Part shown: positions 31,601 through 54,245 of the stretch, piece by piece
Numbering within the stretch: the stretch's first letter is position 1
How the letters are laid out: the number at the start of each line of letters is the position of its first letter
NCBI GenBank assembly: GCA_030278955.1
Contig: JAOANR010000008.1
Span: 44,375,301-44,439,300 of the forward strand
Reading direction: 5' to 3'
Source of the DNA: Hygrophila difformis
Taxonomy: Eukaryota > Streptophyta > Magnoliopsida > Lamiales > Acanthaceae
Length of the DNA stretch: 64,000 bases
Notes under the pieces: model-generated
What the model saw: the letters and a program-made list of their open reading frames with translations, nothing else
The model's database searches: none
Told to the model about the DNA's origin: nothing
Position numbers and translations under genes: made by a program

Positions 31601-31956
31601 GTCTGTAACATCTTAAACACGTGAATAAGACCATAATGTTCTACATCATTTTAATTGTTTTCTTTACTACATTTACAGCTTTAAGCATTTACATTTCAGT
31701 AGTATTCTTAGGTAATCATCATTACAACATCCTTAAATCAAGAATAGAGACAGATTCTAAAGCTAATAATTCTATTAAAACACTTCTATCGTGTAACTCT
31801 CTTTTGAACGATCCCGACAATTAAAATAAATATTGCAGCTTGATACCGTGCGCTTTCGGTAGGAAAAACTAGGCAAGCTTTTTAACAGCCCTATAGGAAT
31901 TATAGTGTAAAGGCTGTCGGGGGGCATTGCATCGGGGTTTTACCTCAAAAGCTTCA
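28629..31956 (+). repeat. 5' LTR of element B
   Basis: It begins TGATGACAGTC, with a perfect 9-bp hairpin at 28631-28654, and ends CTTCA directly before the primer site. It carries a second hairpin CTCTCGCTTTG/CAAAGCGAGAG (29124-29156), a TATA box (29216-29225) and the motif ACCGTGCGCTTTCGG near the 3' end, which is shared with element D. Confidence 0.95.
29216..29225 (+). promoter_or_regulatory. TATA box of the element B LTR
   Basis: TATAAATAAG follows ACACCCATC and is identical in the 3' LTR (51505-51514). It places transcription start near 29250, leaving about 2.7 kb of LTR in the 5' end of the RNA. Confidence 0.7.
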
Positions 31957-31974
31957 TGGCGCCGTTGCCGGGGA
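31957..31974 (+). promoter_or_regulatory. Primer-binding site of element B (tRNA-Asp)
   Basis: TGGCGCCGTTGCCGGGGA follows the LTR end with no spacer. It is an exact 18-base complement of the 3' end of plant tRNA-Asp, the primer used by Athila elements. Confidence 0.92.
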
Positions 31975-32095
31975 GGGTGTAGCGTTATGAATTTTAGAAC
32001 TGAAGATACTCTTGATTTAATTGTAATTATTTACTTTTTATTATAATGAATTCACAAATTCTTTCATTTTGTTCACAGAGAAGCCTCAACAGTTT

Positions 32096-35000
32096 ATGAG
32101 CGAGAGAAAAACTCGATCTTCAAGACCACCTTTGCTTCCTTTTAATTGTGAACTTGAGAGAACAGCAAGGCTGATCAGAGCAAGTGCAAGAAGGAGACAG
32201 AGAGATCTTGCAGAAGGAAATCTTTCAACCATAACAAGGATGGCTAACAATGGACAGAATGACGGACCTGGGAACTTGCCAAATGGACAACCAGATAATC
32301 AGCAAAACATTCCACTTCGAGGACCTTTTCAAGCACCACAAAGAGCTGCTGCACCACAATTTATTCATCAACACTATTTTCCACCAAATTTTGCTAATCC
32401 TGTTCCGAACCCTCAAGAAGAGCAATATCAACCATGGCAACCTAATGTCGATCAATATTTGGCTGGGACGGATGAGGAGGTTGATATACCACCTGGTATA
32501 TTGAACCTAGCATCTTCTAGAGCTTTTTATGGAATGAGTGCTGAAGATCCACATTTACATCTCAAGAAGTTTGTTGAACTAAGTAAGACAGTAAAGAAAG
32601 GAAGAGCTTCAAGGGAAACCATTCAGTTGGCTATGTTTCCATTCTCTTTGGATGGCTCAGCTAAAGAATGGTATGATTCATTAAATGCTCAACAGAAGGC
32701 TACATGGCCAGAATTAGTCAGGAATTTCCTACTCAAGTATTTTCCTGAAAGCAAGGTTGACGAATGGGTAGACAAGATCTCTAGTTTCAAGATGAGAAAA
32801 GGGGAATCCCTTAAGGATGCCCGGGACAGATTCTTTGACATGCTCAAGAGATGTCCACAGCATGGTATAACTGAAAGAAGGCTATTGAAAATTTTCTTCA
32901 CCGGACTCACTCACACTTGGCAGATGATGATCAATGCCACTGGAGGGGAACAATTGCTTCAAATGCCACTTGATAGAGCGTGGTCAACAATAGATACCAT
33001 GACAGCCAGCAGGGCAGTCCTCCAGGACGATGATCCACCATCTCCTACCAGAAAAAGTCTTGTCATCCATACAGACAAAAATGAAGAGAAATTTGCAGCA
33101 CTCACCAAGCAGATTGCTGATCTACAGTTGGCTCAGCAAGCAAATCAACAGGCTCAGCATCAACAACAACAGCAACCAGTGATGATCCTTCAACCTGCTC
33201 CAATGGAACCGGTGTATCAGTGCGGAATTTGCTCAGGGCCACATCACAATGATCAGTGTCCACAAATTCAGGAAGCCCCAAAGCAAGATGAGAGCTGCAA
33301 CTACACCGGATTCCAAAACAAACACCCGAATCTGAGCTATGGTAATACTCAGAACGCACAAAATGCACATCTTCTGAACCCACAACAACCAAATCAGCAG
33401 CAGTTTCGTCCTCCACAACCATTTTATCCACAACAACAGATGTACCCACAGAGACCCTTCCAACAGGTGAACCAACAGAATAGGCCGTTTGGACAGTTTG
33501 CACCAGTCCCAGTGAACTTTCCACAACAACCTTATCCTGTTGCTCAAGATAATACTTACTCTTTAAAGGTGGAAAATGCTCTGAAGGAGTTCATTGTAAA
33601 GCAGACAGAGACGAATAACCAACTGCAGGCTTCAATCAAGAATGCTGAGAATTCTGTAACAGAGATGGCCAAATTACTACAGCAGAGAGAAAAAGGAAAA
33701 TTACCAAGTTCTTCTGAAACAAATCCACAATGTAAGGCAGTTACATTGAGGGGAGGAAAAGAGGTTGTTGATCCTGAATTTGAAAAGAAAAGAGATAGGT
33801 TGCTGCAGCAGAAAAAGTTCAAGGATGTTCAAACAATGGAAGAAGATGATCACCCTGAACAGAGACAGATACTTGAGGATAAGGGTTTGGAAAAGAATGT
33901 CTCAGGATATTCTTTTCCTAAGGAAAAAGAGGGAGGTAATGATAATCCTAACTCTACAGGTAACAAAAAGGATTCACTGGATGAGCACATGCCCAGGATA
34001 CCATATCCTGGGAGACTCAAAAATGATCTTCAAGAAATTAAATTTAAGAAATTTCTTGAAAAGATTAAGGCCATTGAAATATCAATCCCTTTGGTTGAAT
34101 TAATTGCTGAAATGCCCACTTACGCTAAGTTTCTGAAAGAATTAATTTCAGGGAAAAGAAGTGCAGGAGAGCAGCACATGGTGGTCTTAAATCAAAATTG
34201 TAGCTTGGTTCTTCAACAAAGGATTCCTCCAAAGCTTGAAGATCCAGGGAGTTTCACTTTACCTCTGATTATCAACTGTAAAGAAGCTGGGCGAGGACTC
34301 TGTGACTTAGGAAGCAGCATCAATGTAATGCCACTTGCTATGGCGAGACGCTTGGATTTGGGAAAGATGAGGCCAGTCAATATGACCCTCTTCTTTGCCG
34401 ATCAATCGAGCACCAGACCAGAAGGGATCATTGAAGATGTTATAGTAAAGACAGGAGGCCTTTGTTTTCCAGCTAACTTTGTCATTCTTGATATTGACGA
34501 AAATGTCAGAATTCCTATCATATTGGGAAGGCCTTTTCTGGTGACTGCGGGAGCCATGATTGATGCAAAGAATGGCATAGTGAAGCTTCATGTTGATAAC
34601 CAGGAGGTCACTTTTGACATGATGAAGATGTCAACATATCCTTTTAACGCTTTTGAAACCAATGTAGCGGGGAAGGAATTAGAAGATAGTACTATGGAGG
34701 GGGGAAATCTTTTTGATTACTATAATCTCTTTACCACTGATGTAACTGAGAACAATCTCGCCCCACTCACAAATGCTAAAGATGCTACTTTTGCTTACTT
34801 GTGTGCGGTTAGATTCGCTGATCCTGAGACTGGTGAAATCAAGGATGGATCAGAAAGTGAGGATATGCCATCTTCAGAGCAATCTGAGGATGACATTGAT
34901 AAAACAGACCCTTCTGAGGAAGGATCTGATTTAAAGATGGAAGTGCAAACTCGAAGCAGATTAACTCCATCAATAGAAAACCCACCTGAGCTTGAGCTTA

Positions 35001-36817
35001 AAGTATTACCAGAACATCTTAAGTATGCCTTTTTGGCAGACAAAAAGAAGCTTCCGGTAATAATTTCATCCAAATTGAGTGAAGAACAAGAACAAGCTCT
35101 AGTAGGTACTCTTAAAAATCATATTCAGGCAATTGCTTGGACTATAGCAGATATCAAAGGCATCAGTCCACACATTTGTATGCATAGGATTCTGATGGAG
35201 GATGAATACAAACCGTCCAGACAACCACAAAGGAGGCTAAACCCACCAATGCAGGAAGTTGTCAAGAAGGAGGTAATCAAGCTACTTGATGCAGGTATAA
35301 TCTATCCTATTTCTGATAGTAAATGGGTTAGTCCAACACAAGTTGTACCCAAAAAGGGTGGGATTTGTATTGTGACAAATGAACATGGTGATGAAGTAGC
35401 AACAAGACCAGTAACTGGTTGGAGAGTTTGCATTGACTATAGAAAATTAAACACTGCCACAAGAAAAGATCATTTTCCTTTACCGTTCATTGATCAAATG
35501 TTAGAAAGATTGTCAGGTAAACCATTTTACAGTTTTCTAGATGGTTATTCAGGTTATAATCAAATAGTTATTGCTAGTGAAGATCATGAGAAAACAACTT
35601 TCACATGCCCATATGGAACATTTGCTTATAGAAGAATGCCTTTTGGATTATGTAATGCTCCTGCTACATTTCAAAGATGCATGATGAGTATTTTCTCTGA
35701 TTTTATTGAAAAATGCATTGAAGTGTTTATGGATGATTTTACTGTTCATGGAACTGACTTTGAAGATTCTTTAAAAAATTTGTCAAAAATTTTGCAGAGA
35801 TGTGAGGACACTAACTTAGTTCTTAACTGGGAAAAGTGTCATTTTATGGTTCAAGAAGGAATTGTCCTGGGACACAAAGTATCTAGAGCAGGAATAGAAG
35901 TAGATAAGGCTAAGGTTTCTGTAATAGCAAATCTACCACCACCTAAAACAATTAAGGCAGTAAGGAGTTTTCTTGGTCATGCTGGTTTTTATAGAAGGTT
36001 TATTAAGGACTTTTCTAAGATAGTAAGACCCTTGTGTAATCTTCTTCATAAGGATGTAACATTTAGCTTTGATGAAGACTGCTTAACAGCTTTTAAGACT
36101 TTGAAGGAGAAATTAATCACTGCACCTATAGTTCAGTCTCCTGATTGGAGTCTACCTTTTGAGCTTATGTGCGATGGAAGTGAGAATGCAGTAGGAGCAG
36201 TTTTGGGGCAACACAAAGAAGGCAAACATCATGTTATCTATTATGCTAGCCATACTCTTAATGATGCCCAGATAAACTACACTACTACAGAAAAGGAAAT
36301 GTATGCTGTAGTCTTTGCCTTTGATAAGTTCAGACAGTATCTTATTGGAGCCCAAACTATAGTTTACACAGATCATTCTGCATTACGATATCTTTTCTCA
36401 AAGCAAGAAGCCAAACCGAGGCTGATAAGATGGGTTTTACTTCTACAAGAATTTGACATCATTATCAAGGATAGAAAAGGAAAAGATAATGGAGTAGCAG
36501 ACCACCTTTCTAGGTTGGAGGAGAAAACAGAGAAGGAGGAAGTTGTAAATGATAAATTTCCAGATGAACAATTGTATGCTTTGCAGTTGCATCAATTTGA
36601 TTGTCCTTGGTTTTCAGATTTTGCTAATTATCTAGCTTGCAAGATTGTCCCAAAATTTAAAGACTCTCATCAGAAGTCAAGATTTTTCAGAGAAATTCAG
36701 AATACTATTGGGATGAACCCTTTTTATTCAAGTTTTGTTCAGACCAGGTTATTAGGCGCTGTGTTCATGAAAAAGAAGGTTTCCAAATTGTCAGAAAGTG
36801 TCATGAGAACCCTTTAG
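32096..36817 (+). CDS. Gag-protease-RT-RNase H polyprotein of element B
   Basis: I choose ATG 32096 ([12 protein letters not shown]), because the longer open frame from 32069 has no ATG upstream. Domains in order: Retrotrans_gag capsid at about residues 155-300 ([33 protein letters not shown]); a zinc knuckle [13 protein letters not shown] near 375; a Gln/Pro-rich linker; an aspartic protease with [14 protein letters not shown] near 735 and [12 protein letters not shown] with [36 protein letters not shown] and the catalytic [11 protein letters not shown] near 1210; RNase H with [44 protein letters not shown] and [10 protein letters not shown]. Gag and pol form one frame with no stop. A one-base frameshift near 36695-36703 throws the frame off before integrase, which continues in the next entry. 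Otherwise the protein looks intact. Confidence 0.95.
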
Positions 36818-37881
36818 GAGGCCATCATGGTCCTGCTAGGACTGCTAGAAAAGTTCTAGATTGTGGGTTTTACTGGCCAACTATCTTTTTGGACTCCCAG
36901 AAACTTATAAAGATGTGTGATAGATGTCAAAGATTGGGAAACATTTCAATGAGAGAAGAAATGCCTCAAAAAGGGATTTTAGAAGTAGAGATATTCGATG
37001 TCTGGGGAATTGATTTTATGGGACCATTTCCCCCGTCTTTTGGTAATCATTATATTCTAGTAGCTGTTGATTATGTTTCAAAATGGGTAGAAGCAGTAGC
37101 CTTACCCAATAATGAAGCTAAACAAGTTACTAAATTTCTACAGAAGAATATTTTTACCAGGTTTGGAGCCCCTCGTGCCATTATATCTGATGGAGGATCT
37201 CACTTTGTGAATAAACTCTTTGAGAAATTACTGAAGCAGTATGGTGTTCATCATAAAGTTGGATCACCATATCATCCTCAGACAAGTGGACAGGTGGAGG
37301 TATCGAATAAGGAAATTAAGCACATTCTACAAGCTTCTGTGAACATTACAAGAAAAGACTGGTCAAAGAAGTTAGATGATGCTTTATGGGCTTACAGAAC
37401 TGCTTTTAAAACTCCTATAGGAATGTCTCCCTACAGATTAGTTTTTGGAAAAGCATGTCATCTTCCAGTTGAGTTAGAACATAGAGCATATTGGGCCATT
37501 AAAATGCTCAACATGGATTTTCAGTCAGGACAAGATAAGAGGAAGTTCGATCTGTCTAAACTTGAAGAGATGAGACTGGAAGCATATGAAAGCAGCAAGA
37601 TTTATAAAGATCGAACTAAGAAAATTCATGATTCAAAAATTAAACATAAAGAATTTTCTGTTGGTCAATTGGTTTTGCTTTATAATTCTCGTTTGAAATT
37701 ATTTCCAGGCAAGCTCAGATCAAGGTGGACAGGACCATTTCCTGTTGTAGCTGTTCATGATAATGGATCAGTGACAATTATGCTCAATGAAGGAGAAAAG
37801 ACTGTAAATGGACACAGGCTGAAGGAATATATTGGTCAACAAGATTTAAATATCCAAACTGAATATTTGGATAATCCTTAG
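36703..37881 (+). CDS. Integrase part of element B pol (after the frameshift)
   Basis: From 36703 this frame is open to TAG 37879-37881. It begins with the standard Athila pre-integrase block ([12 protein letters not shown]), then the zinc finger ([24 protein letters not shown]). The DDE core follows: [17 protein letters not shown] with the first Asp, [14 protein letters not shown] with the second, and [15 protein letters not shown] with the Glu. After it come [19 protein letters not shown] and a GPY/F-like tail ([13 protein letters not shown]). There is no chromodomain, as expected for Athila. Only the single frameshift separates it from the upstream pol; the first in-frame ATG (36889) is well inside. 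The element could still be mobilised by proteins from an intact copy. Confidence 0.93.
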
Positions 37882-38152
37882 TTTTCTGTTTTCCAAAAAA
37901 AAAAAAAAAAATAATAATAATAATAATAGGGGGGTGGATACTACCCAGGTTAACTGAGTAGTATTCCCCTTTTATTTAGTTTTATTTTTTCTTCTCTAAT
38001 TCTTTTATTTTTTTATTTTCAGGAATTCGAGAAATGAAGCTGTGATGGAATGAAGGAGGAAGAGACATGAATCTTCAAACAAGTTTTTGAGTATTAAGTG
38101 TTTGGAAAATGGAGTATGAATGGATCCTGAGGCCACGCTTCTGTAATTTTGT

Positions 38153-38366
38153 CAAAGCGTGAGTTAAAAATGAATTACTCTTACTCACGCTTTGTAAAAG
38201 TTATGATGCGAGGTGATCAGTTCAAATTTTTATTCTGTCAAAATTATAATTTGTTAAGGAATAAGAGTTTGGTGTCTACGCTTTGTCGAAAAACAAAGCG
38301 AGACTATTTTACTCTGGGAATTGTACAAGAATGTTTTCTCGCTTTGTAATTAACAAAGCGAGAAAA
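38153..38366 (+). repeat. Cluster of three CAAAGCG hairpins
   Basis: The arms are CAAAGCGTGAGT/ACTCACGCTTTG (12 bp, 38153-38194), a 12-bp stem with one bulge built on CGCTTTGT/ACAAAGCG (38274-38304), and TTTTCTCGCTTTGT/ACAAAGCGAGAAAA (14 bp perfect, 5-base loop, 38334-38366). The LTR hairpin at 29124-29156 belongs to the same family. The outer base after the core differs between copies but stays paired. Confidence 0.8.
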
Positions 38367-38543
38367 GGATTTTTATACCCACGCAATGACAATCGACAGA
38401 GCGAGAGTCTGGGAATTTTGAACGGATAGATTTTCAAACTTCTCAAAGACCAAAATACCCTTTTCAGACTCTTCTTCTTCTCGTACACTAACCATCACGT
38501 CGTTTCAACCGCCAGTAATTATGGCAGAATTTAGTTTTTCTGC

Positions 38544-38550
38544 TATAAAA
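38544..38550 (+). promoter_or_regulatory. TATA box of F-box unit 1
   Basis: CTATAAAATC stands 87 bases before the ATG of unit 1, a typical plant promoter spacing allowing a short 5' UTR. Confidence 0.55.
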
Positions 38551-38630
38551 TCTAATCGAATCCTCCTCTTCTTTCATCTCAAACATTTCCATCCTGAGAA
38601 ATTATCCTAAAACCATATTCAAAAGATAGA

Positions 38631-39371
38631 ATGGCCGCAGCAGCTCCAAATGCTAGAACATCCATTCTAGACATTCCTGAAGAAATCTTGGGAGATATTC
38701 TCTCAAGGTTGGGAAGAGAAGAGATGAAGGATGTAGCCAGGTTAGCCCCAACCTGCAAAAAGTTCGCCAAAGCAACTATGGCGCCTATAGTATGGAGGAG
38801 GGCAAATGTGGAAAGGAGGATGACTGCAGAGAGGACACTTGACTCTCATTACATCCGAATACTTCGAAGATGCAGAGAGGCGGGAAATTTCATGCTGAAG
38901 CTAGAACCTGCACTCTTGAGATTCTGCAATACAGGGCTCAAGGAAGCCGCTTTTGAAGTCCTTAAACCTGGAGTCGATGACAACCATCACCCCTCAATCT
39001 TTATCAAGGCCTTCATTCTTTTGAGTTTGGAGAGCCTTGAGGAAATTGATGAGGGATTGTATCTTCTCGGATCAATCCTTAAAGATGAAGATCATATCCG
39101 CAAGATGGAGGCGAAGATCAGCAAGCTATTCAATGAAAGCGAAGAGGAGCCTAATCCCTTTAAGGGGCAAGGACATCGCGAGTACTGTGATTATTTAGCG
39201 CCACATAGTAGGGACTTAGTTAGGGAACCTCCACACTTTAACTATGGTGCCACAAACATTGATTGTTTGTGTTGTGAGGTTACTAGTTTAATTAGGAGAT
39301 TAAGAGAAAATTTTAATGAGCATGTAATTGAATCTGAGTCAGAATTAGAAACTGATTCAGATTCAAACTGA
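38631..39371 (+). CDS. F-box protein, unit 1 of the retrotransposon array
   Basis: This intact 246-residue protein starts at ATG 38631. An F-box domain occupies about residues 14-55 (LDIPEEILGDILSRLGREEM, then APTCKKFAKATMAPIVWRRA). F-box proteins bind SKP1 and bring targets to SCF ubiquitin ligases. The middle has the repeat-like CREAGNFMLKLEPALLRF and VLKPGVDDNHHPSIFIKAF. The C-terminal part has NPFKGQGHREYCDY and a C-x-C-C cluster (NIDCLCCEVTSLI), then an acidic Ser/Asp-rich end. The layout resembles the At2g35280-like plant F-box family. The first 17 bases correspond exactly to the separate first exon of units 2 and 3, but here they are fused to the second exon sequence without an intron. 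A TATA box lies upstream. Confidence 0.88.
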   Translation: MAAAAPNARTSILDIPEEILGDILSRLGREEMKDVARLAPTCKKFAKATMAPIVWRRANVERRMTAERTLDSHYIRILRRCREAGNFMLKLEPALLRFCNTGLKEAAFEVLKPGVDDNHHPSIFIKAFILLSLESLEEIDEGLYLLGSILKDEDHIRKMEAKISKLFNESEEEPNPFKGQGHREYCDYLAPHSRDLVREPPHFNYGATNIDCLCCEVTSLIRRLRENFNEHVIESESELETDSDSN

Positions 39372-39425
39372 TCGATTATGTAATCTCTTAATTTGTATCT
39401 AAATACTAACCCCTTTTGGTGTTGC

Positions 39426-39437
39426 TATATATATATA
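39426..39437 (+). promoter_or_regulatory. Possible TATA box of F-box unit 2
   Basis: TATATATATATA in the interval after unit 1 lies 309 bases before the unit 2 ATG. It is simple-sequence, so it is weaker evidence than the other two boxes. The rest of 39372-39745 is non-coding. Confidence 0.35.
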
Positions 39438-39745
39438 CTCCTCGCTTCATTTTTATTAAAAGGAAATAACTTGATTGATCTTATCCTTTACATTAGATTT
39501 TTATCTGCCCTTTTAAATAAAATCTTCAAAATAGGGTTATTTTAGGCTTAATCATTACCCCCTGCAGAGACAAGATTTACTATCTTGACCCCTGCAGTCC
39601 TTAGATAAAAATAGGCATCTCTGTCCTTGCAGTCATTCCTCTCACTTGTCATTTCAAAAATTTTCATCAGATTTTCTTCTCTTACTCAAGAAGAAATCGC
39701 CATACACCATTTTTATCACTCTCAACCATTCTCATAAGCAAGAAC

Positions 39746-40838
39746 ATGGCCGAGAACAATCCGTAAGCAATCTCGTTCAACCTTTCTTTCTTTTATTCTT
39801 AGTTCTATTTTGCAAAGCTTGTTGTCCGATTGCATTTCTAGACCTAGGGTTCATGATTCTGTATTTTTCAGGGAATGGTTGTAGAAAACGGAAACATTAA
39901 TCATTTAAGAGTCCTCATAACTAAGAGCTGTTTCTTTAAACTCATTAATCCAGAGAATCTTTTCTGAAATCTTTAGTTTGTAACTGACGCATTATCCATA
40001 TGAGACTTTGGAACTTCATATTAGGAATGAAACTCCCATTTCGACTATTCTGGCTCCATCATAAAAGTATTCCCCTGTATTCCTTATCATATTATTTTCT
40101 GGAAACAGAAATGCTAGGAATCCACAGCGCATTGGGACTCAAATATCCCATTTACCCACTGAGTTGTTGGGGGATATTCTATCAAGAATCGGAAAAGACA
40201 ATGTTAGAGAGCTTTTCAGGATAGCAGAAGTCTCTCCATTATTTTACCAGGCAAGCAAAACCCATCTTGTTTACAAGAGAGTGGACTTGGAATCGTGTAT
40301 GAGGTGGAGAGAGGACGTTTATCCGGACAATCAGAAAAGATTCATTCGAGAGTGTCAAAATGCAGGGAACTTCATGTTCAACATTGAACCTGCATTAAAG
40401 GCATTTGTGGAGGAAAAAGATGAGAAGAAGGCATATGAAATCCTCAAGCCAGGACTAGATGATGGGCATGAACCTACTATTCTGCTCAGAACGATGCTCC
40501 TATTAACAAAACAAGAGGATAAGTGGATTGAAGAAGGACTAGAGTTGGTCCAAACAGTAGCTTCTGATGTTTTAGAAGTGGTTTTCATTAAAATCTATCT
40601 TTTTCATTGGTTCACCCATATTCCTCAACTTCCAAATCCTTTTCTAGGGCAACCAGAGATGAGCTACTGTAAGGATCACACCTTGCAGGTTCAAGTCTTA
40701 CTACCACCACACATCAGGATGGACTGCATCCCATGTCAATTCTTTGACATGGTGAGGCAGTTTAGACTGTATTGTGGTGAAGTGTTTCCTGATGAGTTCA
40801 TGTGGACCGACTCCGATGATGAGGAAATTGACCCCTGA
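39746..40838 (+). CDS. F-box protein, unit 2 (two exons)
   Basis: Exon 1 is 39746-39762, encoding MAENNP with the last codon split. The intron is 39763-40108 (donor CC|GTAAGC, acceptor GGAAACAG). Exon 2 runs 40109-40838 and ends TGA. The spliced frame gives 248 residues. The F-box lies at about residues 18-60 (ISHLPTELLGDILSRIGKDN). The middle has NIEPALKAFVEEKDEKKAYE and LKPGLDDGHEPTILLRTMLL. The C-terminal cysteine part has NPFLGQPEMSYCKDH and DCIPCQFFDMVRQF, and the tail is acidic. It is closest to unit 4 by eye. No stop or frameshift is present, so function as an SCF substrate receptor is possible; the substrate is unknown. Exon 2 begins AAATGCTAG, the same bases that follow the 17-base start of unit 1. 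Confidence 0.85.
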
Positions 40839-41479
40839 GCAGTTAGAGCTAGAAATTCTATAGTATTATATATGTTTGTAATTCCTGGATATTCTGATGT
40901 ATTTTGGATCATTTGGATTTTATGTATTACAATTCTCCTACTTTTCTATTTTGTATGATCAGTTTCTTTACTCAATTCAAAAATGAATTAAAGATGAAAC
41001 TGGAAATCAGGAAATGAGATGGAAGAATTGGTAATCTTTAAATAAATAAGCTAAGGGTAGATTTTTGTTAGGCATTAAGATGAATCTGGTGAAGAAGATT
41101 TAACCAGACTTAATATTAAATTTAGAGGTCTTAATCATTTTCAATGATTACCCCTCGCTTTGTTTTCAATCAATCCAATTTTATCCAATTTATGTTGTTT
41201 GAGTTCTTTAACTCAATTTTTAAATCAATAACCAGACTCACTGATGTGGCAGGTCTAGAATGAGTGAGTACACTCTAAGTATTTGAGTACCCTATTTTTA
41301 TTCTTTAACTAGGCCAACCCATTGTTTTATATAAGACCTATAACCTCCTTATCTTTTCAAATCATTTTCATATCTTTTCATATTCTCTCTCGAGAAGAAA
41401 CCGCCATTTTTAAAGTTCTTCTTCTTCCTCTATTTTCGAAACTCTTCTTCAGAAACACTCAGCTTCAGGAACAATCCTA
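40839..41479 (+). other. Intergenic interval before F-box unit 3
   Basis: Non-coding. It contains the unit 2 3' UTR and, at 41328-41335, TATATAAG, a good TATA box 145 bases before the unit 3 ATG. Confidence 0.55.
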
Positions 41480-42393
41480 ATGGCGAGCAACAACCCGTAA
41501 GCTCTCCGTTCATTTTTCATCGCATTTCTTCCTGATGTTTAAAATTGTTACATTCTGCATTATAATGTTTTTACTCATACTAGGGTTTAAGTTTTTCATC
41601 CACTGTCGTTCTTCCCTAATTTTAAAACTTGGAGTATAATTTCAACTGATTCTTCTTCTTTAAAATTCGATTAAATAACAGTGAGGAGCAGCCTTCTGAG
41701 TCCTCTGCTTTACACCTGACTGATCTTCCATTGGATGTCCTTGGGGAGATTCTGTCACGAGTAGGGCAGAGCAGCTTTGAAGATCTGCTCAAGTGTAAAC
41801 AAATCTGTTCAACATTCACAATAGCCTCAGAATATCCTATTGTCCTTCGGAGATTTAATGTACAGGATCTAGCCTTTAAAATAATTTCTAATGAATCCTC
41901 TGGTAAAATCAAATTTCTAGATGCCTGTAGAGAGGCTGAGAATCATATTCTGAACTTACCCAAGGCCTTGGAATTGTTTACACAAGGGAAAGGATCCAAG
42001 GCATTTCAGATCCTGGATGAAGGAATAGAAGATAACTTTAAGATTTCCCAATATTTTAAAGCTTTATGTTGCCTAAGCAAAAGTTCTAGGGAAGAGATAG
42101 AAGCTGGACTTCGCTTAATTAGTCCAATCTTAAGGGATAGATTAAACAGTTATGAATTTAGATACAATCTTCTCACCCTAGTTTCAGAATGGGAATATGT
42201 CCCAAATCCATTCTTAGGGCAGGAAAATAGGGAATTCTGTGTTGTAGAAGTTCGTGATCAGGAAACCTTCCATAAGTCATCATACTATACAGCCGATCAG
42301 GTCTGCTATCTCTGCTGTGACACAAAAAGAGCCATAGCTGACTTTAGGATGGCAGCAGGGGAGAACTTTGATAATTATAGCATTGATGAATAA
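41480..42393 (+). CDS. F-box protein, unit 3 (two exons)
   Basis: Exon 1 is 41480-41496 (MASNNP with a split codon). The intron is 41497-41681 (GTAAGC to AATAACAG), and exon 2 is 41682-42393, ending TAA. The spliced product has 242 residues. The F-box is at about residues 16-58 (LTDLPLDVLGEILSRVGQSS, then CKQICSTFTIASEYPIVLRR). CREAENHILNLPKALELF follows, and the C-terminal part has NPFLGQENREFC and VCYLCCDTKRAIADF. It has its own TATA box and a downstream AATAAA (42508-42513). The exon 1 length and splice phase are identical to unit 2. This first exon may also serve units 4 and 5, which have none. Confidence 0.85.
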
Positions 42394-42584
42394 GCTTTTG
42401 GACAAAGGAGAAAGAGATTGATGTATGTGACATGTCTTCTAATTTTTAACTTTGAAACTGTCACTAGATCAGATATTTTGTACAATGTAATGTAGCCTGA
42501 TTTTGATAATAAAATCTAATCTCATTGCTACATAAATGTTGAGTTTAACTCTGAATTCTGTGTTCTTTCTCCTTTTCTTTTCAG

Positions 42585-43338
42585 AAATGTCGAAAACCTT
42601 CAACTCTTGGAAACTCAATTACTTGATTTACCAATAGAGTTACTGGGAGACATTCTGTCAAGACTAGGAATGGAAAGCATAAAGGCACTTTTTAGAGCGT
42701 CCGAAACTTCTAAGCAATTTCTCTCAGCAAGCAGGTCATCGTTAGCTCTAAAGAGAGCTAATTTGGAAACTTGTGTTGTTTGGAGAGGAGATGCTTATCC
42801 AAGTAACCAAGTCAGATTCATTAAAAGATGCCAGGATGCAAGCAATTATATGTTTAATATTGTGCCTGCATTGATAGCCTTTGTCGAGGATAAAAATGAG
42901 AAAAAAGCTTATGAAATTCTTAAGCCTGGTTTAGATGATAAACACAAACCAACCACTTTCATAAGATCCTTTCTACTGCTTTCCAAACAAGATCCGCAGC
43001 TGGATGAGGAAGGAATTCAATTGATCAAATCTGTGACTCAAGATCCTTTTGAACTTCTATTCTTAAAAATGAGTGTTCTCCACTGGCTCCTTTATGGTGA
43101 AAAGTTCCCAAACCCATTCCTTGATCAAGAGGAAAGGAGTTTTTGTAAGAATCACTCTATCCAAGAGCGACAGCAATTACCTTTTAATGAAAGGATGGAG
43201 TGTATTCCTTGTGAACTGTTTGATTATGTCAAGCAATACAGAAGAGCAAGTGGCGAACTAGGCATATTATTTGAATGGGAGCAATGGAACAATGCAGAAG
43301 AAGATCAGAATGAAGAAGAACTACTAGAATTAGAATAA
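42585..43338 (+). CDS. F-box protein, unit 4 (second exon only; no own start)
   Basis: A pyrimidine tract ending CTTTTCAG (acceptor at 42583-42584) precedes a segment open to TAA 43338. The phase is exactly that of exon 2 in units 2 and 3: with a 17-base first exon it would give 256 residues. There is no in-frame ATG before the F-box (LLDLPIELLGDILSRLGMES), and no ATG-plus-donor exon between 42394 and 42584, so it cannot make a full protein alone. The body matches unit 2 (LIAFVEDKNEKKAYEILKPG, NPFLDQEERSFCKNH, ECIPCELFDYVKQY). It is either spliced to the first exon of unit 3 or is an orphan exon. The coding sequence shows no damage. Confidence 0.75.
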
Positions 43339-43498
43339 TCTAGAAATCAAGTGATTGATATTTTCTTTGCTTGTATCTTTTGTGTTTTTGTCTTGGGACA
43401 GAGAATTATGTGGATGATTCAAAGCTGTACATCCCTTTTCCATTAATGAATTGCATTCTCTAGTTTTTAATTCTATTTTTGTTTTTAACTTTATTCAG

Positions 43499-44246
43499 CT
43501 ATGAAATTGGAACTTCATCAAAGCAACCAAGGACTTCACTAGAGAAATCTGGATCGGGGGAAACTCAGATCACAGATCTTCCCTATGAGATTCTTGGAAA
43601 CATTTTATCAAGATTTGCATTTGACCACCTTGAGACTGTCTTTAATTGTAAACTGGTCTGCAAAGAGCTCGAAAAAGCTACTCATCATCCTTTAGTCTTG
43701 AAAAAGGCTTCTCTTGAAGACTTTACAGCATGGGGATGGGGAACTTTTGAAGAGACACAAAGCATTTTCCTTGAAACCTGCAAAAATGCAGGAAATTGGA
43801 TGTACCAGTTACATGAGGCATTGCGTTTGTTCGTCAAAGACAAGAATGAACAAGCAGCGTTTGAACTCTTAAAACCTGCAATTACTGATAATCACCCCCC
43901 ATCCATCTATGTGAAAGCTCTTATGCTCTTAAGTAAGGATGAAAGGGAAGAGCAAGAGAAGGGAATTTGGCTCTTCGCTCCTCTGTGCAAGAATAGACGA
44001 AGACTCAAGGATCTTCGACTTCAAGTCAGAGGGTGGTTATCCAGTTATGAGGAATTCATCTCACCCTTTCAAGGACAACCCAAGAAGAGACTTTGTGACC
44101 TTAGGAGCTATTATGATAACAATCATGGTCCCTCAAGGAATACCTATGGAGTCGTGTCAATTTACTGTATGAGGTGCCTAGTTTCTGAGCATTGTAATCT
44201 GTTTCAAAGATTTGGAATTGAGGCAGAGACACCTCCTCATTTGTAA
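43499..44246 (+). CDS. F-box protein, unit 5 (second exon only; no own start)
   Basis: An acceptor (TTTATTCAG, 43490-43498) precedes a segment open to TAA 44246 in the same phase as the other second exons. A 17-base first exon would give 254 residues. No in-frame ATG lies upstream of the F-box (ITDLPYEILGNILSRFAFDH). The middle has CKNAGNWMYQLHEALRLF and LKPAITDNHPPSIYVKALML. The C-terminal part has SPFQGQPKKRLCDL and IYCMRCLVSEHCNLF, so the cysteine cluster is conserved. As for unit 4, it looks designed to receive an upstream exon. It is the most divergent at the N-terminus (a Ser/Lys-rich extension before the F-box). Confidence 0.75.
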
Positions 44247-44581: not shown

Positions 44582-46399
44582 ATGACCTATGAAGAACTGC
44601 AAGCTCGAAATATAGAATCGGATAAGAAAGAGAAATCATTCTTGGCAAAGACGAGAACGGTTAACATGGTAGAAGCTATTCGGAGAAGTGGTGGATGGAC
44701 AGCGATGCAAATTTCACCTCCAGACTTTTATATCAATCCATTTATGCTTCAACATATACCAGAGAAGGAAAAGGAGTCATTGAGGATTGATTTAGAAGAA
44801 GCATTCTGGAATAAGATGAATAGGTTTTGGGATGATCAAATGATAATTCTGATTAATGATAGGCATCTGCCTAATGAAATCAGACTGGAAAGAGTTTTGG
44901 AAAGAGAAAGGAAGTGCATGGCTGAGTGGAATCAGGAGTGCTACAGAATTATCAATCCAAAAGATCAGACAGGGCTGGAGTTGGATTACTTTGATCCCCA
45001 ACCACTACCAAAATATGTGAAGCGACTCACCAAATATTGCTGCAAACTTAATGAAATCCGAAATGCTAGAGTCTATGATGCTCAGCAGGCACTCCCTGCA
45101 TACATGCCTCCAACATTCCTGAATAAGAAGGGACCCGTTGAACAGAATTTCTTGACAAACCTGGCTCTAGATAGGATTATTGACGCTCGGATCAATTTAA
45201 GGCATGACCTAGAGCCTTATTTCAAGAAAGCTAAACAAGGTCAGGCGGTATGGAAAGATGTCCTTAGAATTATTCAGGAAGCTAGAAATAGCTGGATCAG
45301 GTATATGAATAAATGGTCAAAAGGGGATGATCTAAGGAAAAGGATTCTTAAACCAGGGTTGGTAAGGAAACCTAATGAGGAATTTCCTTTGGAGGAGTTT
45401 GCTGAATTGATGCCAGAACAGCAAGCATGGATTAAGGATGCAGAGAAGAGAGAAGCTGAGAGATCAGGCAAAAACAGAAAGCAGAGATCAGATGCAAAAC
45501 AGACACCACAAAATATAGTAAGGAATATTTTCAGAGAATCAGTTGTTAATGAAGGACTGGAACCTGTAGCGAATTTCAGAAAAGTTTCAGCTCCATCAAT
45601 AACGCCAGCAGATGCAGATCTACTCATTACAGATAGACCTAATAAGATCATGAAGAGATTACCTCCAACTCTCCAACAGGAAGTTCATGGATATGTCCAG
45701 GAGAGGAAGAAAGAATTCATCGAGAAGTATGTCAGGTATGATGCTATGTGCAGGGAAAATGCATACAAGGAGCACAGACCCTACACTGATCAAACACAAG
45801 GAAGAATTCAGCAGGTAATTATTGATGATTGGGATGCATGGAATGAGAAATATCTGAATAGAAAGGGAATGAATATCATGCTGAAGGGATTAGGCAAGAA
45901 CTTCTATATTAAGAAGCACGACTCAGATGAAGACAGTACAGATGATGAGCAAAGAATTGAGAGGATGAGAGTAGTTGATGAGGTTACAACTATTCTGGGA
46001 GAAAAGAATGAGGAAAATGATGAAATCCATCCGATTCTGCAAGAGAGTATGGATTGCTATTATGCAAACAAACGTAAGGCAGATCGTGAATGGGAGGAAC
46101 TCATGAGAACTCAAGACAAGAAAGGTAAAACGAAAGTATCCTCCAAAAAGAGGAAGTCACACAATTTCAGTTCGAGCACTTCAGATGAAGTACCAATAGC
46201 TAAGAAAAGGACTGGGAGGAAGGTGGAGACAGGCAGGTCTGAGAAAGCTAGCCGAATTCTGAAGAAGAGGAAAAATGAAGATGAGCTAACAACCAAAGAA
46301 ATTCTGGATGTGACAAAAGACTTGATGGATGAAGATGTTGAGATTCTACAATCAGCTCAAGAAAAGAAAGAAGTTGTTACCTACAAAAGGAGAGGATAG
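44582..46399 (+). CDS. Second long ORF of element B, N-terminal part
   Basis: This frame of 605 codons starts at ATG 44582 (MTYEELQARNIESDKKEK) and ends at TAG 46397-46399. The protein is charged and mainly helical. Its first ~400 residues include GGWTAMQISPPDFYINPF and WNKMNRFWDDQMIILIND; the last ~120 residues are very Lys/Glu-rich with nuclear-localisation-like clusters (KVSSKKRKSH, RILKKRKNED). I recognise no enzyme motif. It occupies the position after pol where many Athila elements carry an extra or env-like ORF, but I see no signal peptide or membrane anchor. The frame continues directly after the TAG into the next ORF, so the two were probably one protein of about 1390 codons. Confidence 0.7.
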   Translation: MTYEELQARNIESDKKEKSFLAKTRTVNMVEAIRRSGGWTAMQISPPDFYINPFMLQHIPEKEKESLRIDLEEAFWNKMNRFWDDQMIILINDRHLPNEIRLERVLERERKCMAEWNQECYRIINPKDQTGLELDYFDPQPLPKYVKRLTKYCCKLNEIRNARVYDAQQALPAYMPPTFLNKKGPVEQNFLTNLALDRIIDARINLRHDLEPYFKKAKQGQAVWKDVLRIIQEARNSWIRYMNKWSKGDDLRKRILKPGLVRKPNEEFPLEEFAELMPEQQAWIKDAEKREAERSGKNRKQRSDAKQTPQNIVRNIFRESVVNEGLEPVANFRKVSAPSITPADADLLITDRPNKIMKRLPPTLQQEVHGYVQERKKEFIEKYVRYDAMCRENAYKEHRPYTDQTQGRIQQVIIDDWDAWNEKYLNRKGMNIMLKGLGKNFYIKKHDSDEDSTDDEQRIERMRVVDEVTTILGEKNEENDEIHPILQESMDCYYANKRKADREWEELMRTQDKKGKTKVSSKKRKSHNFSSSTSDEVPIAKKRTGRKVETGRSEKASRILKKRKNEDELTTKEILDVTKDLMDEDVEILQSAQEKKEVVTYKRRG

Positions 46400-48754
46400 T
46401 TACCTTCTGAGCAGAAGGAAACCAACCCTGAAGAATTTAAGCAGCAAGGATCTTCTCTTGAGAATGTAGAACAATTGGGAATCATTCCTGAGAAAGAAAA
46501 GCAACAAGAAAAAGAACCTGAAAAGCCAGTTAAAAAGTTCAGGATAAAGATGAAGGCTAGAAAGCCTAAATATGTAGTACCTGACACCAGCTCTGAAGAA
46601 GAAAAAGTCGAACCAACTCTAGGGATAGTTCCCTACACAGAGAGGTTGGAGCTCACTCCTTACACTAATTTGGAAGTGGGGGATATAGATCCAGAGGGCT
46701 GGAGAGCATGTATTGAAGAACATCAACCTGATGAACAAGGATCAACTAGACCAAGCACTGATCTCCAACTGGTTCAGATTGCTGAGAAAGATGATAGAGA
46801 AGGGCAAGATGAAGATCAACAAGCTCAGGTCAACAGGGATTTCATTCAAAGTCAGATTGATTTACAAGGATTTTCAGGAAAAGAAACTGAGCAAGATATA
46901 CCACCAGAACAAGCTGCAGATGAGCAAGAATTTGTGAATCAAATTGAGGAATCAGTGGCAGACATATTTCAGGAACAGACACTGGAAGATTTACAGACTT
47001 TTGAAGATATGAACTTGCATGGAATTACAGTCGGGAACATGACCTACTCTCTGGAAGGGCTGATTAAAAAGTTCAGAAAATTGGCTAGAGAAGGAGGGAA
47101 TGCACGCACCTCAGCAGAACAAGCAAGTGAATATGCAGCTAAACTTGAGTCAGAGTTAGAGGAAATCCAACAACAAATAAATCCTGACCAAGTAATGGAA
47201 CCATCTCCATTAGCAATTCAAGCTTATGAAGAAGAAGTGCAGAGAAATGAAACTCAAGAAGCTCAGCAGAGAAAGTATTTTATGGAAGACACTGTCAGTC
47301 AATATCTCAGAACACAGACGAATGCTGAAAATCAAATGAATCAATGGCTCCTTCCACCTCAAGTCAGGGATGAAGTAGTTCAGAGAGCAATTGTAAGGAT
47401 GAATGATCCTGAATGGGCCGCGGAACAGAAGAAGAGAGTAGAAGAATATTTTGGAGTCCAAGGATTTCTAGATTCAGAATCTACTACTATTCCTCTTCTA
47501 CTAAACGAACCTGTACAGGAAGATCCCACAGAGATCTTAAATCAGCATAGCCTTGAAGTTACTGAGAAGGTAGATACCAGCACGTCATGGATTTATGATT
47601 CAGGTATAGGCAATTCACAACATGATGACACTGATAGAGTTCAAGAAGAACATCCAGAGCCTGACCATGAGCAAAACTCAGAACAAGTTCATGAAGAAAA
47701 CGTGGAACCTGCTCAAGAAGGAGGCCAAACAGAAGAACAAGAAAATGAGAATGCGGGGGATGAGCAAGAAGAAGCACAAGAATCCGAGGGAAATGAATCA
47801 GATACATCTGAAGGATCATCCCCCGGAAAAGATGTCCCAGAATTGCTACCTGCGAGTTATTGGGGAAAGAATAGTCCAAAGGTGAGGTTATCAATCCCTG
47901 ATAGCATTGAAAAGAGGACTGAATTTACAGAAGAAGAAATCAAGGTTAAGTTTAATGGAAGAAAGGAAGCATTGGAAAATTACTTGGGGATGTCCAAAAT
48001 GATTGTTCCGGACAAAGGATTTCATCCCAAGTGGCTGGATCATAAGTGTATCAGCTACTGGAGGAGAATCAATGAATGGGACATTTTCATGAGACACAAT
48101 AACAAATGTGGTTATGTGGAACTGACCAGGGAGTTCTATGCTAACTTTGATGTTGAGGCAGAAACAACATGGATTAGAGGGAAAACAGTGCAAGTCACTG
48201 TAGAAACTCTAAATGATCTGATACAGGCACCTTTGTTAGAACAGCCAGAAGTCAAATCCGAGGTCCTACTGAGGAAGAAAACTCAAGGAAATAAACTTGT
48301 TAATGCTAGAAAAATGGCACTGGGATTTTGTTCAACACACAGAGGAACTGAGCAGAATAAGATCCCTTTGAAGAATTTGAAGCCTGAGTACCTGCCTACA
48401 CTTGATTTCTACTACTCAAAGCTCAGACCTACCACAAATTTTCAAGGACCCTCAGCCGGAACTTTCGAGGGATTTGCATTGTTATGGTCAGGAAGGAAAT
48501 GCAGTGCTGCACACCATGTTCTCAATGTTATTAAGTCAAGAGTTGGAGAAGATGCAGCATTGGCTTATCCGAATTTAATCAGAAGACTTTGTGAGAAACA
48601 AGGAGTCTCAATCACACCATTTTTACCAGAGATCATAAAGATAGATCCTCCTATTCCATTACCAGAAGACACTTTAAGGGGAGAGTTGATTTACCAAATG
48701 CCAGATTTAGAGGAACAAACTTCCGAAGGATCAGATCAAGGTGCCATCTCCTAA
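46400..48754 (+). CDS. Second long ORF of element B, plant-transposon-domain part
   Basis: In frame with the preceding ORF across one TAG, this runs to TAA 48752-48754; no ATG lies near its start, so it needs readthrough or is dead. The first half is acidic and Gln/Glu-rich (EEQENENAGDEQEEAQE), with possible coiled coils. From about 47950 comes a globular domain: CISYWRRINEWDIF, GYVELTREFYANFDVEAETT, WIRGKTVQVTVETLNDLI, LKPEYLPTLDFYYSKLRP, HHVLNVIKSRVGEDAAL and RLCEKQGVSITPF. The pattern (REFYAN, VRGK, N-x-L, then L-C-x-x-x-G-V/I) matches the antisense gene of element C. I associate it with the plant transposon protein domain (PF20167, from memory). Its function is unknown. It lies between the F-box array and the 3' LTR. 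Confidence 0.65.
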   Translation, partial: LPSEQKETNPEEFKQQGSSLENVEQLGIIPEKEKQQEKEPEKPVKKFRIKMKARKPKYVVPDTSSEEEKVEPTLGIVPYTERLELTPYTNLEVGDIDPEGWRACIEEHQPDEQGSTRPSTDLQLVQIAEKDDREGQDEDQQAQVNRDFIQSQIDLQGFSGKETEQDIPPEQAADEQEFVNQIEESVADIFQEQTLEDLQTFEDMNLHGITVGNMTYSLEGLIKKFRKLAREGGNARTSAEQASEYAAKLESELEEIQQQINPDQVMEPSPLAIQAYEEEVQRNETQEAQQRKYFMEDTVSQYLRTQTNAENQMNQWLLPPQVRDEVVQRAIVRMNDPEWAAEQKKRVEEYFGVQGFLDSESTTIPLLLNEPVQEDPTEILNQHSLEVTEKVDTSTSWIYDSGIGNSQHDDTDRVQEEHPEPDHEQNSEQVHEENVEPAQEGGQTEEQENENAGDEQEEAQESEGNESDTSEGSSPGKDVPELLPASYWGKNSPKVRLSIPDSIEKRTEFTEEEIKVKFNGRKEALENYLGMSKMIVPDKGFHPKWLDHKCISYWRRINEWDIFMRHNNKCGYVELTREFYANFDVEAETTWIRGKTVQVTVETLNDLIQAPLLEQPEVKSEVLLRKKTQGNKLVNARKMALGFCSTHRGTEQNKIPLKNLKPEYLPTLDFYYSKLRPTTNFQGPSAGTFEGFALLWSGRKCSAAHHVLNVIKSRVGEDAALAYPNLIRRLCEKQGVSITPFLPEIIKIDPPIPLPEDTLRGELIYQMPDLEEQTSEGSDQGAIS

Positions 48755-49367
48755 GATAAAAAGGGTCTATCTTCCTTCAAAATCAAGATCATATCAGTCA
48801 AAAACCACAACAAAAAGGACAATGACTGTAACTCCATCTCCTGCATTGAATCCTATTCCAGAAGATGAAGAATTTGAGAACACTTCTGCACCATCTCAAC
48901 CTTTGAGACAACCAATGAGGAATACAGTATCTGTGGATGAATCTCAGAATATGAGTACTTCAATCCAAAGTTTTGCACAGTCCATGGAGATGCTAGTGAA
49001 AACTATGTCAGAAGACAAGCATGTTCAGAGAGAAATGGAGCAAAAGAGGATTGAACTTGAGCATGTCAGGATTCAAACTGAGGAGAAACTCAGGAAAGAA
49101 GAGATGGAAAGGCAGGAGAAGATAAGGAAGGAAGAATGGGATAGACAGGAAAGGATGAGAAGGGAAGAGATGGAAAGATTTGAAAGGCTAAGAAGAGAAG
49201 AACTTGAAGAGAGAAGACAGGAACGAGAAAGGGATATGGAACTGAGGAGGCAGGAGCAGTATAACAGTACGAGATTAGTAGACATTCTTGCCAACCTAGT
49301 CTCGGATCTAAAGAAATCTCCATCCATACCACCTAAGGATCCAGACAATGATGCAGGACCATCCTGA
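48741..49367 (+). CDS. Second long ORF of element B, coiled-coil tail
   Basis: This frame overlaps the end of the previous one and has no ATG at its start (the ORF opens at a GTG), so it is probably the original C-terminus moved out of frame by one indel near 48720-48750. It begins with a basic Pro/Ser-rich stretch (SPKIKRVYLPSKSRSYQ). It then forms a long Arg/Glu coiled coil with a 7-8 residue repeat (REEMERFERLRREELEER), ending DNDAGPS. A helical tail after the same type of domain is also seen in the antisense gene of element C. The product is likely oligomeric. Confidence 0.6.
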   Translation: MPSPKIKRVYLPSKSRSYQSKTTTKRTMTVTPSPALNPIPEDEEFENTSAPSQPLRQPMRNTVSVDESQNMSTSIQSFAQSMEMLVKTMSEDKHVQREMEQKRIELEHVRIQTEEKLRKEEMERQEKIRKEEWDRQERMRREEMERFERLRREELEERRQERERDMELRRQEQYNSTRLVDILANLVSDLKKSPSIPPKDPDNDAGPS

Positions 49368-50917
49368 GATCACAGGGGAGTTTTCTGAAACTTTCTTCTT
49401 CTTCTTTTTAATTGCAGTCTCTTTTTCTTTATTTCTTTCCTGTTTCCGTTTGTTCTGATATAACTTAGGATAGATTTAATATGAAGTTGTGTCATAGTAT
49501 TGAATTTCAAGCTAGGATCATAAAAATAATGAAAATAATAATAAACTCAGGGAGGCTAATAAACTGATAAAGGAATAGAAGATGAGTTTAAAAGTGGTTC
49601 CTGTGGAGACATCTACTTTATAGATTTTCACTGCAAGCATGAGCCGCTCTTGAAAACTGTTCTTAGCTGTAAGCTCTGAGATTGATTGATGTCATTACTG
49701 GATAAATAGTTTGAAGGTTTTGTGATGATATTAACCTTAGTGATTTGCATACCATAAACAATAACTGCACAAGGTTAAGAGGATTGATCTAATCTAGCCT
49801 CTCTTGGAAGATGAGTGTGCATATTGAGTAAAAAAAAAAAAAGAAAGAGAAAAAGAGAGCAAGGGAAATTTTNNNNNNNNNNNNNNNNNNNNNNNNNNNN
49901 NNNNNNNNNNNNNNNNNNNNNNNNNNNNNNNNNNNNNNNNNNNNNNNNNNNNNNNNNNNNNNNNNNNNNNNNNNNNNNNNNNNNNNNNNNNNNNNNNNNN
50001 NNNNNNNNNNNNNNNNNNNNNNNNNNNNNNNNNNNNNNNNNNNNNNNNNNNNNNNNNNNNNNNNNNNNNNNNNNNNNNNNNNNNNNNNNNNNNNNNNNNN
50101 NNNNNNNNNNNNNNNNNNNNNNNNNNNNNNNNNNNNNNNNNNNNNNNNNNNNNNNNNNNNNNNNNNNNNNNNNNNNNNNNNNNNNNNNNNNNNNNNNNNN
50201 NNNNNNNNNNNNNNNNNNNNNNNNNNNNNNNNNNNNNNNNNNNNNNNNNNNNNNNNNNNNNNNNNNNNNNNNNNNNNNNNNNNNNNNNNNNNNNNNNNNN
50301 NNNNNNNNNNNNNNNNNNNNNNNNNNNNNNNNNNNNNNNNNNNNNNNNNNNNNNNNNNNNNNNNNNNNNNNNAAAACAGACGTGGTAAAATAATGCGGAT
50401 ATAAGTAGCTGGCACAGCTGCCCCTCTGATTTATGAGTTGAAGAACTTTAAAAGAGCAGAATCAAGGGCAGGGGAGTTGAAGTTTCATCTGCAATGTCAG
50501 GTCATGCGACTCCTCCTAATAATGTGAAACCGAGCTATTGAAAGCCACGGAAGGCCACCCCTTGATATAAAAAAAAAAGAGTGTGTATTTCATTTCAGAA
50601 TACAAGATATGCACATGAGTTGGACAGGATTGAGCGTGAGAAGAGAAATCTGGCTAACTAAGGAGCAGAACAATAATTCACATAAATGCAAATCACTTTT
50701 GTTATTGTTTCCGTGAAATCTGGTGAATTCTAAGTCAGGTATGAAGCATCAATCAGTTGAAAGAGTTGAGCTTGGGATAGTTGGAAAAGAGAAGGTAGTG
50801 ATCCAGTGGAGTCTTACATCAACATTTTAATCTCAGAAGCCACTAATTGGACTTATTCTTAGAAACTTTACAAGTTTCTTACCACTTGAGGACAAGTGTT
50901 TCTAAATGTGAGGATGG
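49368..50917 (+). other. 3' untranslated region of element B with gap
   Basis: Non-coding sequence lies on both sides of a 500-N gap. It ends in a CTAAATGTGAGGATGG tract next to the 3' LTR, whose purine-rich GTGAGGATGG is the probable plus-strand primer. Confidence 0.65.
49873..50372. other. Assembly gap of 500 N
   Basis: Exactly 500 undetermined bases inside element B; its true length is unknown, so the 25.6 kb size is nominal. Confidence 0.99.
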
Positions 50918-53900: not shown

Positions 53901-54245
53901 CTTAAACACGTGAATAAGACCATAATGTTCTACATCATTTTAATTGTTTTCTTTACTACATTTACAGCTTTAAGCATTTACATTTCAGTAGTATTCTTAG
54001 GTAATCATCATTACAACATCCTTAAATCAAGAATAGAGACAGATTCTAAAGCTAATAATTCTATTAAAACACTTCTATCGTGTAACTCTCTTTTGAACGA
54101 TCCCGACAATTAAAATAAATATTGCAGCTTGATACCGTGCGCTTTCGGTAGGAAAAACTAGGCAAGCTTTTTAACAGCCCTATAGGAATTATAGTGTAAA
54201 GGCTGTCGGGGGGCATTGCATCGGGGTTTTACCTCAAAAGCTTCA
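50918..54245 (+). repeat. 3' LTR of element B
   Basis: The copy has the same nominal length as the 5' LTR (3328 bases). I found about seven substitutions and two compensating single-base indels relative to it, for example a missing T in the CCACTGCGAT segment and GCGAAAAGC to GCGAGAAGC. The 3' end CTTCA is followed by the ATCG target duplication. Confidence 0.95.

Follow-up and report, generated by a model that had tools for sequence, protein, structure and literature searches.

F-box proteins are encoded by several genetic elements that invade plants, among them the P0 protein of poleroviruses, Clink of nanoviruses and VirF of Agrobacterium. Fu et al. reportedly described in 2013 an anti-silencing factor encoded by VANDAL elements, which are DNA transposons; it is a DNA-binding factor without an F-box. 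Our analysis of a 64,000-nucleotide stretch of the Hygrophila difformis genome (contig JAOANR010000008.1, here C14, positions 44,375,301 to 44,439,300; hereafter the window) revealed a long terminal repeat (LTR) retrotransposon with an array of five F-box genes, or units, between its integrase and its second long open reading frame (ORF). P0, Clink and VirF are single viral or bacterial proteins and are likened to this five-gene retrotransposon set by their description, and the VANDAL factor would be a functional parallel only if the units act against silencing. With a probability of roughly 0.6, we consider the element to be a Ty3/gypsy-type (Athila-like), high-copy LTR family that has five diverged F-box/TPR proteins in its own gene set, these proteins serving as receptors of SCF (SKP1-cullin-F-box) ubiquitin ligases.

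Host-type domains in mobile elements have been described before. Gypsy elements of the Tat/Ogre lineage in Phalaenopsis carry an ORF for an AlkB-type RNA demethylase, which was proposed to counter host control (PMC9289625). Like these, the window element is a Ty3/gypsy element of about 25 kb and high copy number with a host-type domain in an extra ORF outside gag-pol, but where the Phalaenopsis elements have one domain in one ORF, it has five diverged F-box genes, two of them intron-bearing, in an Athila-like element. The term 'F-box' does not occur in the main text of the accompanying screen of 121 angiosperm genomes, where the 15 domains are not all named (PMC9289625). In Athila-type elements, an env-like ORF follows pol and precedes the 3' LTR (PMC7264820); the window element shares with them the succession of gag-pol, long sense ORF(s) and 3' LTR, and differs in having the F-box array between pol and the second ORF. 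In Thlaspi arvense, the single F-box 'LTR-gene' TaChr6G576 is likewise associated with an LTR element and was treated as a host retroduplication (PMC8764390), whereas here a multi-copy family has five conserved units. The Zisupton element of platyfish also encodes an F-box, in one protein isoform, but it is a fish DNA transposon with one domain in the element's protein (PMC12062965). No description of an LTR element with an F-box array was found in the PMC literature searched, which mostly excludes subscription papers. There are thus precedents for an F-box in a mobile element; what is new, as far as searched, is a high-copy retrotransposon with a conserved set of five such genes, some of them with introns.

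The five units occupy 38631-44246 on the sense strand, each combining an F-box with a TPR-like part:

38631-39371, forward strand: F-box unit 1, a single exon whose N-terminus matches that of spliced unit 2
39746-39762, forward strand: exon 1 of unit 2 (MAENNP) with the donor GTAAGC, which is kept in all 21 sequences compared (the window and 20 copies)
40109-40838, forward strand: exon 2 of F-box unit 2, following an intron at 39763-40108
41480-41496, forward strand: exon 1 of unit 3 (MASNNP) with the donor GTAAGC, a candidate first exon shared by units 3, 4 and 5
41682-42393, forward strand: exon 2 of F-box unit 3, following an intron at 41497-41681
42585-43338, forward strand: F-box unit 4, with a phase-2 splice acceptor and without its own start codon ahead of the F-box
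43499-44246, forward strand: F-box unit 5, with a phase-2 splice acceptor and without its own start codon ahead of the F-box

All five gave an F-box or F-box-like match in Pfam (best per unit, E 7.8e-8 to 0.0031), the curated F-box cut-off being reached by units 1, 4 and 5 and missed by units 2 and 3. The F-box is followed in every unit by a match to TPR_27 (PF23310; E 5.2e-13 to 0.013), above the curated cut-off in unit 5 (E 5.2e-13) and below it in units 1-4, with unit 3 the weakest (E 0.013). An initial annotation of the window had described all units as free of internal stops, which holds for the window copy, and as sharing a C-terminal NPFxGQ motif followed by C-x2-C, which has to be narrowed: NPFxGQ is exact only in units 1, 2 and 3, unit 4 having NPFLDQ and unit 5 SPFQGQ, and C-x2-C is complete in four of the five. 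The best conserved part is the F-box core, kept by all units. As pairwise identity among the units is only 27-53%, they are old paralogues, and their synonymous sites are saturated in nearly all pairs.

The array is contained in a single LTR element that spans 28629-54245, in the order 5' LTR, gag-pol, units 1 to 5, second ORF and 3' LTR:

28625-28628, no strand: left target-site duplication ATCG, identical to the 4 bases at 54246-54249
28629-31956, forward strand: 5' LTR, 3328 bp, TG...CA, 99.73% identical to 50918-54245
31957-31974, forward strand: stretch resembling a primer-binding site, directly 3' of the 5' LTR
32027-37881, forward strand: gag-pol (gag, reverse transcriptase, RNase H, integrase) in overlapping frames, 32027-36817 and 36661-37881
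37882-38630, forward strand: spacer with a TATA box and three CTCGCTTTG sites, partly in hairpins and common to the LTRs
44582-48754, forward strand: second long ORF with a Transposase_32 match and one in-frame stop (46397-46399)
48711-49367, forward strand: third downstream open frame, which encodes many charged residues and overlaps the last part of the second ORF
49873-50372, no strand: assembly gap of 500 N, corresponding to 2 bp in copy L024
50902-50917, forward strand: purine-rich stretch before the 3' LTR
50918-54245, forward strand: 3' LTR, 3328 bp, whose start was also reached in L024 and the L010 copy
54246-54249, no strand: right target-site duplication ATCG

The two LTRs differ by seven substitutions and two gap positions, in line with the initial annotation, which had placed the five sense units between pol and the second long ORF inside near-identical LTRs. 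The marks of an LTR retrotransposon are present, namely paired TG..CA LTRs, a target duplication and stretches resembling a primer-binding site and a purine tract; the target duplication is 4 bp long, the usual length being 5 bp. Pfam identified gag, reverse transcriptase, RNase H and integrase, with reverse transcriptase and RNase H ahead of integrase (the Ty3/gypsy order), and gave no chromodomain match after the integrase at E up to 1. The long sense ORF at 44582-48754, which carries Transposase_32 (PF20167), sits between pol and the 3' LTR as in the Athila-type layout. The primer-binding-site-like stretch presumably resembles the 3' end of tRNA-Asp, and it is from this stretch and the layout that we take the element to be Athila-like. 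The window copy is not intact as assembled, because the frame of pol appears to shift between RNase H and integrase and one in-frame stop interrupts the second ORF. The 500-N gap inside the element follows the second ORF and precedes the 3' LTR, on the 3' side of the F-box block; it probably conceals almost nothing, since L024 is continuous over this site and matches window positions 49872 and 50374 only 2 bp apart. No N separates the F-box block from the 5' LTR, gag-pol or the second ORF.

The assembly that was searched (915,113,747 bases in 246 contigs) contains many further copies with the same combination of pol and F-box units, as the initial annotation's proposal of a mobile, amplified F-box set would have it. 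Unit 1 as a query gave 6598 loose candidates and unit 5 gave 6388, the best 150 being scored in each case; the copy counts are therefore lower bounds, biased to intact copies. Among the best 150 places for unit 1, 149 cover the full 190-residue query and one covers residues 2-190, at 94-100% identity and without an internal stop in 143, while the best 150 for unit 5 are all of full query length, 97-100% identical and stop-free in 141 cases. A top-150 match to unit 5 lies within 20 kb downstream, on the same strand, of 118 of the 150 unit-1 places, most often at a spacing of 4.87 kb (109 pairs at 4.78-5.14 kb); four pairs are 7.5-13.2 kb apart, and five pairs with a spacing of 2.4-3.5 kb have probably lost units. 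Copies are present on every contig from C1 to C15. In 20 copies hand-picked over the identity range of the 150 unit-1 places, units 1-5 always occur in the same order and orientation, with an integrase, at least partial, upstream in 19 (the exception is L018) and the second ORF downstream in 19 (the exception is L026). Together with the window, these 21 sequences have 0, 1, 2, 0 and 5 stops and 1, 0, 3, 2 and 4 frameshifting indels in units 1 to 5, respectively. Two more diverged copies from a TPR_27 search, L041 and L042, also have all five units, at 78-96% identity. The LTR starts 9.85-9.98 kb upstream of unit 1 in the three other copies tested (10.0 kb in the window). On the other side, L024, whose second ORF carries a deletion, could be followed to the start of the 3' LTR, as could the L010 copy with probes; this start was not found in the 11.0-16.5 kb read downstream in three copies, which may be truncated or interrupted. 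Both element ends were read in the window copy only.

The selection analysis, which the initial annotation had suggested, gave a mean pairwise omega (non-synonymous to synonymous divergence, NG86 counting method) among the 21 sequences of 0.136, 0.105, 0.336, 0.138 and 0.228 for units 1 to 5, with codon-bootstrap 95% ranges all under 0.53, against 0.70-1.92 when the sense strand was read in its two other frames. On the antisense strand, frames 1 and 3 gave 0.89-2.11, and frame 2 gave 0.19-0.37, a low value that is expected because its third positions coincide with those of the sense frame. When spacers and introns were read as coding, they gave 0.36-1.97, mostly 0.47-0.88; the integrase gave 0.058 (17 of the 21 sequences aligning well). 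Between the window and L041 or L042, omega is 0.07-0.22 in all five units, highest in unit 3. Codon variants shared by at least two sequences comprise, in sum, about 160 synonymous and 90 non-synonymous changes, compared with 176 and 249 among singletons (Fisher p 1.4e-8), as selection during replication and its relaxation after insertion would produce. The largest part of the singleton non-synonymous changes, 108 of 249, comes from unit 5. The pairwise distances of each unit also track those of the integrase (Spearman 0.45-0.68, 17 sequences; 0 of 500 permutations as high), so that the units travel with the element. Purifying selection is thus clear for units 1, 2, 4 and 5 and weaker for unit 3, and the array seems to have long belonged to the element under selection, unit 3 being the weakest case. 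The synonymous divergence of the units exceeds the divergence of introns and spacers, probably through fast decay of fourfold sites holding G or C. When the array is compared with L041 and L042, fourfold sites with G or C differ far more than those with A/T only, which suggests strong decay of methylated cytosines in the element family.

The exon-intron structure of the units is mixed. Unit 1 is a single exon running from its own ATG, and its N-terminus, MAAAAPNARTS, aligns with that of spliced unit 2, MAENNP-NARNPQ, across the splice junction; it looks like a precise intron loss or the originally intronless form. In units 2 and 3, a first exon of 17 nt ends at a GTAAGC donor and is followed by an intron with a phase-2 acceptor. 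An acceptor of the same phase, with a pyrimidine-rich tract, also precedes units 4 and 5, and in all 21 sequences, the window included, neither of these has an in-frame ATG ahead of its F-box. The MxxNNP exon pattern does not recur in the window beyond units 2 and 3; the interval before unit 4 contains ATG frames with chance phase-2 GTs, none of them GTAAGC-like, and that before unit 5 contains none. An acceptor without a start codon suggests alternative splicing to a first exon further upstream, and the simplest reading of the sequence is that the first exon of unit 3 (or unit 2) is spliced alternatively to units 3, 4 and 5. The 21 sequences all retain both donors and the four AG acceptors. 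L041 and L042 retain the two donors as well as the acceptors of units 2, 4 and 5, the unit 3 acceptor being altered in L042. Unit 1 would then be translated from its own start codon, units 2 and 3 after the splicing of their 17-nt exon, and units 4 and 5 as alternative terminal exons joined, in the same phase, to a first exon that lies upstream.

Diverged relatives outside the array bear on the origin of the units. Four of them, L040 (C10), L043, L044 and L045, match TPR_27, three above the cut-off and L045 below it, and are about 19-31% identical to the units over the TPR-like parts. In all four the TPR_27 match begins at position 37-38 with an AG at most 3 nt away, which looks like a convincing acceptor in three and a poor one in L045, where the tract is poor, and the F-box lies further upstream; these gene models are predictions from the sequence. 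The five units, in contrast, run through this position in one exon, and their only introns follow the 17-nt exon, which was not evident in L040, the sole relative examined for it. The absence of the relatives' apparent intron from every unit gives no support to the capture of a whole intron-bearing gene cluster, as first envisaged, and suggests processed, RNA-mediated capture with later duplication inside the element, or to very old residence. The accompanying idea of host genes being carried and diversified is weakened by the conservation of the units between copies at low omega. The search for a closer host relative was swamped by element copies, and a closer parent gene may have been hidden by them.

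L043 (C14:22.03 Mb) and L044 (C8:55.69 Mb) are diverged F-box/TPR_27 genes, for which frames of matching length (154 and 167-168 aa) recur at several places, and about 2 kb upstream of the TPR_27 exon of L044, on the same strand, is a match to the Replication factor-A C-terminal domain (PF08646, E 1.1e-6). At least these two may themselves be mobile, a second mobile type, perhaps a Helitron, carrying members of the same gene family. At C10:48300233-48449735, five matches with the same 229-aa open frame follow one another at intervals of 22 to 55 kb, and every matched stretch contains a TGA; L045 is one of the five, and the run is perhaps a tandem cluster of the same F-box family.

Selection kept the units working as the element spread, and this suggests that they serve it against or within the host. 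From their domains, the units likely act in SCF ligases: the F-box of each protein would dock on SKP1, and the TPR-like and C-terminal parts would bring a host protein to the SCF ubiquitin ligase, so that with five receptors the element would be rid of different or variable host proteins that restrict it. Among putative targets we favour silencing factors, and that the units counter host silencing is a testable guess. The full model, in which five exchangeable SCF receptors direct host silencing factors to degradation, some of the receptors being expressed by splicing a shared first exon to alternative terminal exons, much like retroviral accessory genes, is put forward tentatively. Several results sit less well with a selected set of ubiquitin receptors. 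The omega range of unit 3 (0.22-0.52) touches the spacer and intron control, which those of the other units do not; the contrast between shared and singleton variants is uneven, the shared variants of unit 3 standing at 29 to 32 and unit 1 barely differing between the two classes; and some F-box scores fall under the Pfam cut-off.

It is also possible, if doubtful, that the units act through SCF on another process than silencing, for example the cell cycle, signalling in defence or the uncoating of the integration complex, for which Clink (cell cycle) and VirF (stripping of T-DNA proteins) would be precedents; this overlaps with the SCF-receptor reading, which leaves the target open. The low F-box scores would suit units that serve the element without ubiquitin, as TPR-like adaptors in RNA export or particle assembly, for example, with the F-box as a relic, but a relic would hardly be the best conserved part of all five units, and we regard this as unlikely. 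Selection at the level of the host, with beneficial F-box genes multiplied incidentally by the element, has a counterpart in Thlaspi, where an F-box 'LTR-gene' occurs together with an expansion of the F-box family (PMC8764390); the presence of copies on all contigs C1-C15, the one layout common to the 20 copies read and the weaker constraint on singletons than on inherited variants, in sum, as expected for selection during element replication, make it improbable here. Passive transduction, in which host F-box genes were recently picked up by one element and merely carried, could appeal to the relatives outside the array, including the five-match run at C10:48.30-48.45 Mb, but is hardly credible given the many copies with low omega between them, the same five units in the diverged copies, the synonymous saturation among units and the distance of the four relatives, even if a closer parent is possibly masked. 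A recent transduction, present in one or a few copies and close to a host parent gene, does not fit either, with at least 150 places found and the four relatives read being distant, though a closer parent may have been missed in the swamped search.

The F-box array may, from its sequence, share regulatory sites with the LTR. The motif CTCGCTTTG or its complement occurs three times per LTR, three times in the spacer between pol and unit 1 and once in that between units 2 and 3; it is absent from the coding regions of gag-pol, the second ORF and the units and from the 38 kb of flanking window sequence that was counted, and dinucleotide shuffles yield almost no sites. All 21 sequences retain two to four sites between pol and unit 1, and 17 of the 21 retain the one between units 2 and 3. 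Some of the sites in the spacer at 37882-38630 and in the LTRs form short hairpins, which are kept in copies. A TATA box lies about 85 nt ahead of unit 1 in the window, and TATA-like boxes precede unit 1 in 21 of 21 sequences and unit 3 in 20 of the 20 listed. Near-identical stretches of CTAAATGTGAG(G/T)ATGG are present at 44418 and 44521, before the second ORF, and at 50902, as the purine tract of the 3' LTR; they are possibly internal plus-strand priming sites, or traces of a template switch by which the second ORF was gained.

A related element lies downstream in the window, with gag from 61191 (61191-64000), and continues into L029 with its own long ORF after pol. Its integrase is 56% and its second ORF 27% identical to those of the window element, and no F-box match at E <= 0.001 occurs between its pol and second ORF, so the F-box array is not general to such elements.

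If the SCF-receptor reading is true, a single element carries its own diversified ubiquitin-targeting toolkit. The mixed intron state of the units is a natural record of how an element that replicates through RNA keeps, loses and uses introns. Extra ORFs are known in plant LTR elements, and their function has rarely been testable; five host-type genes of a known biochemical class offer a handle on whether retrotransposons redirect host protein degradation, and the same handle could show which host proteins limit plant retrotransposons.

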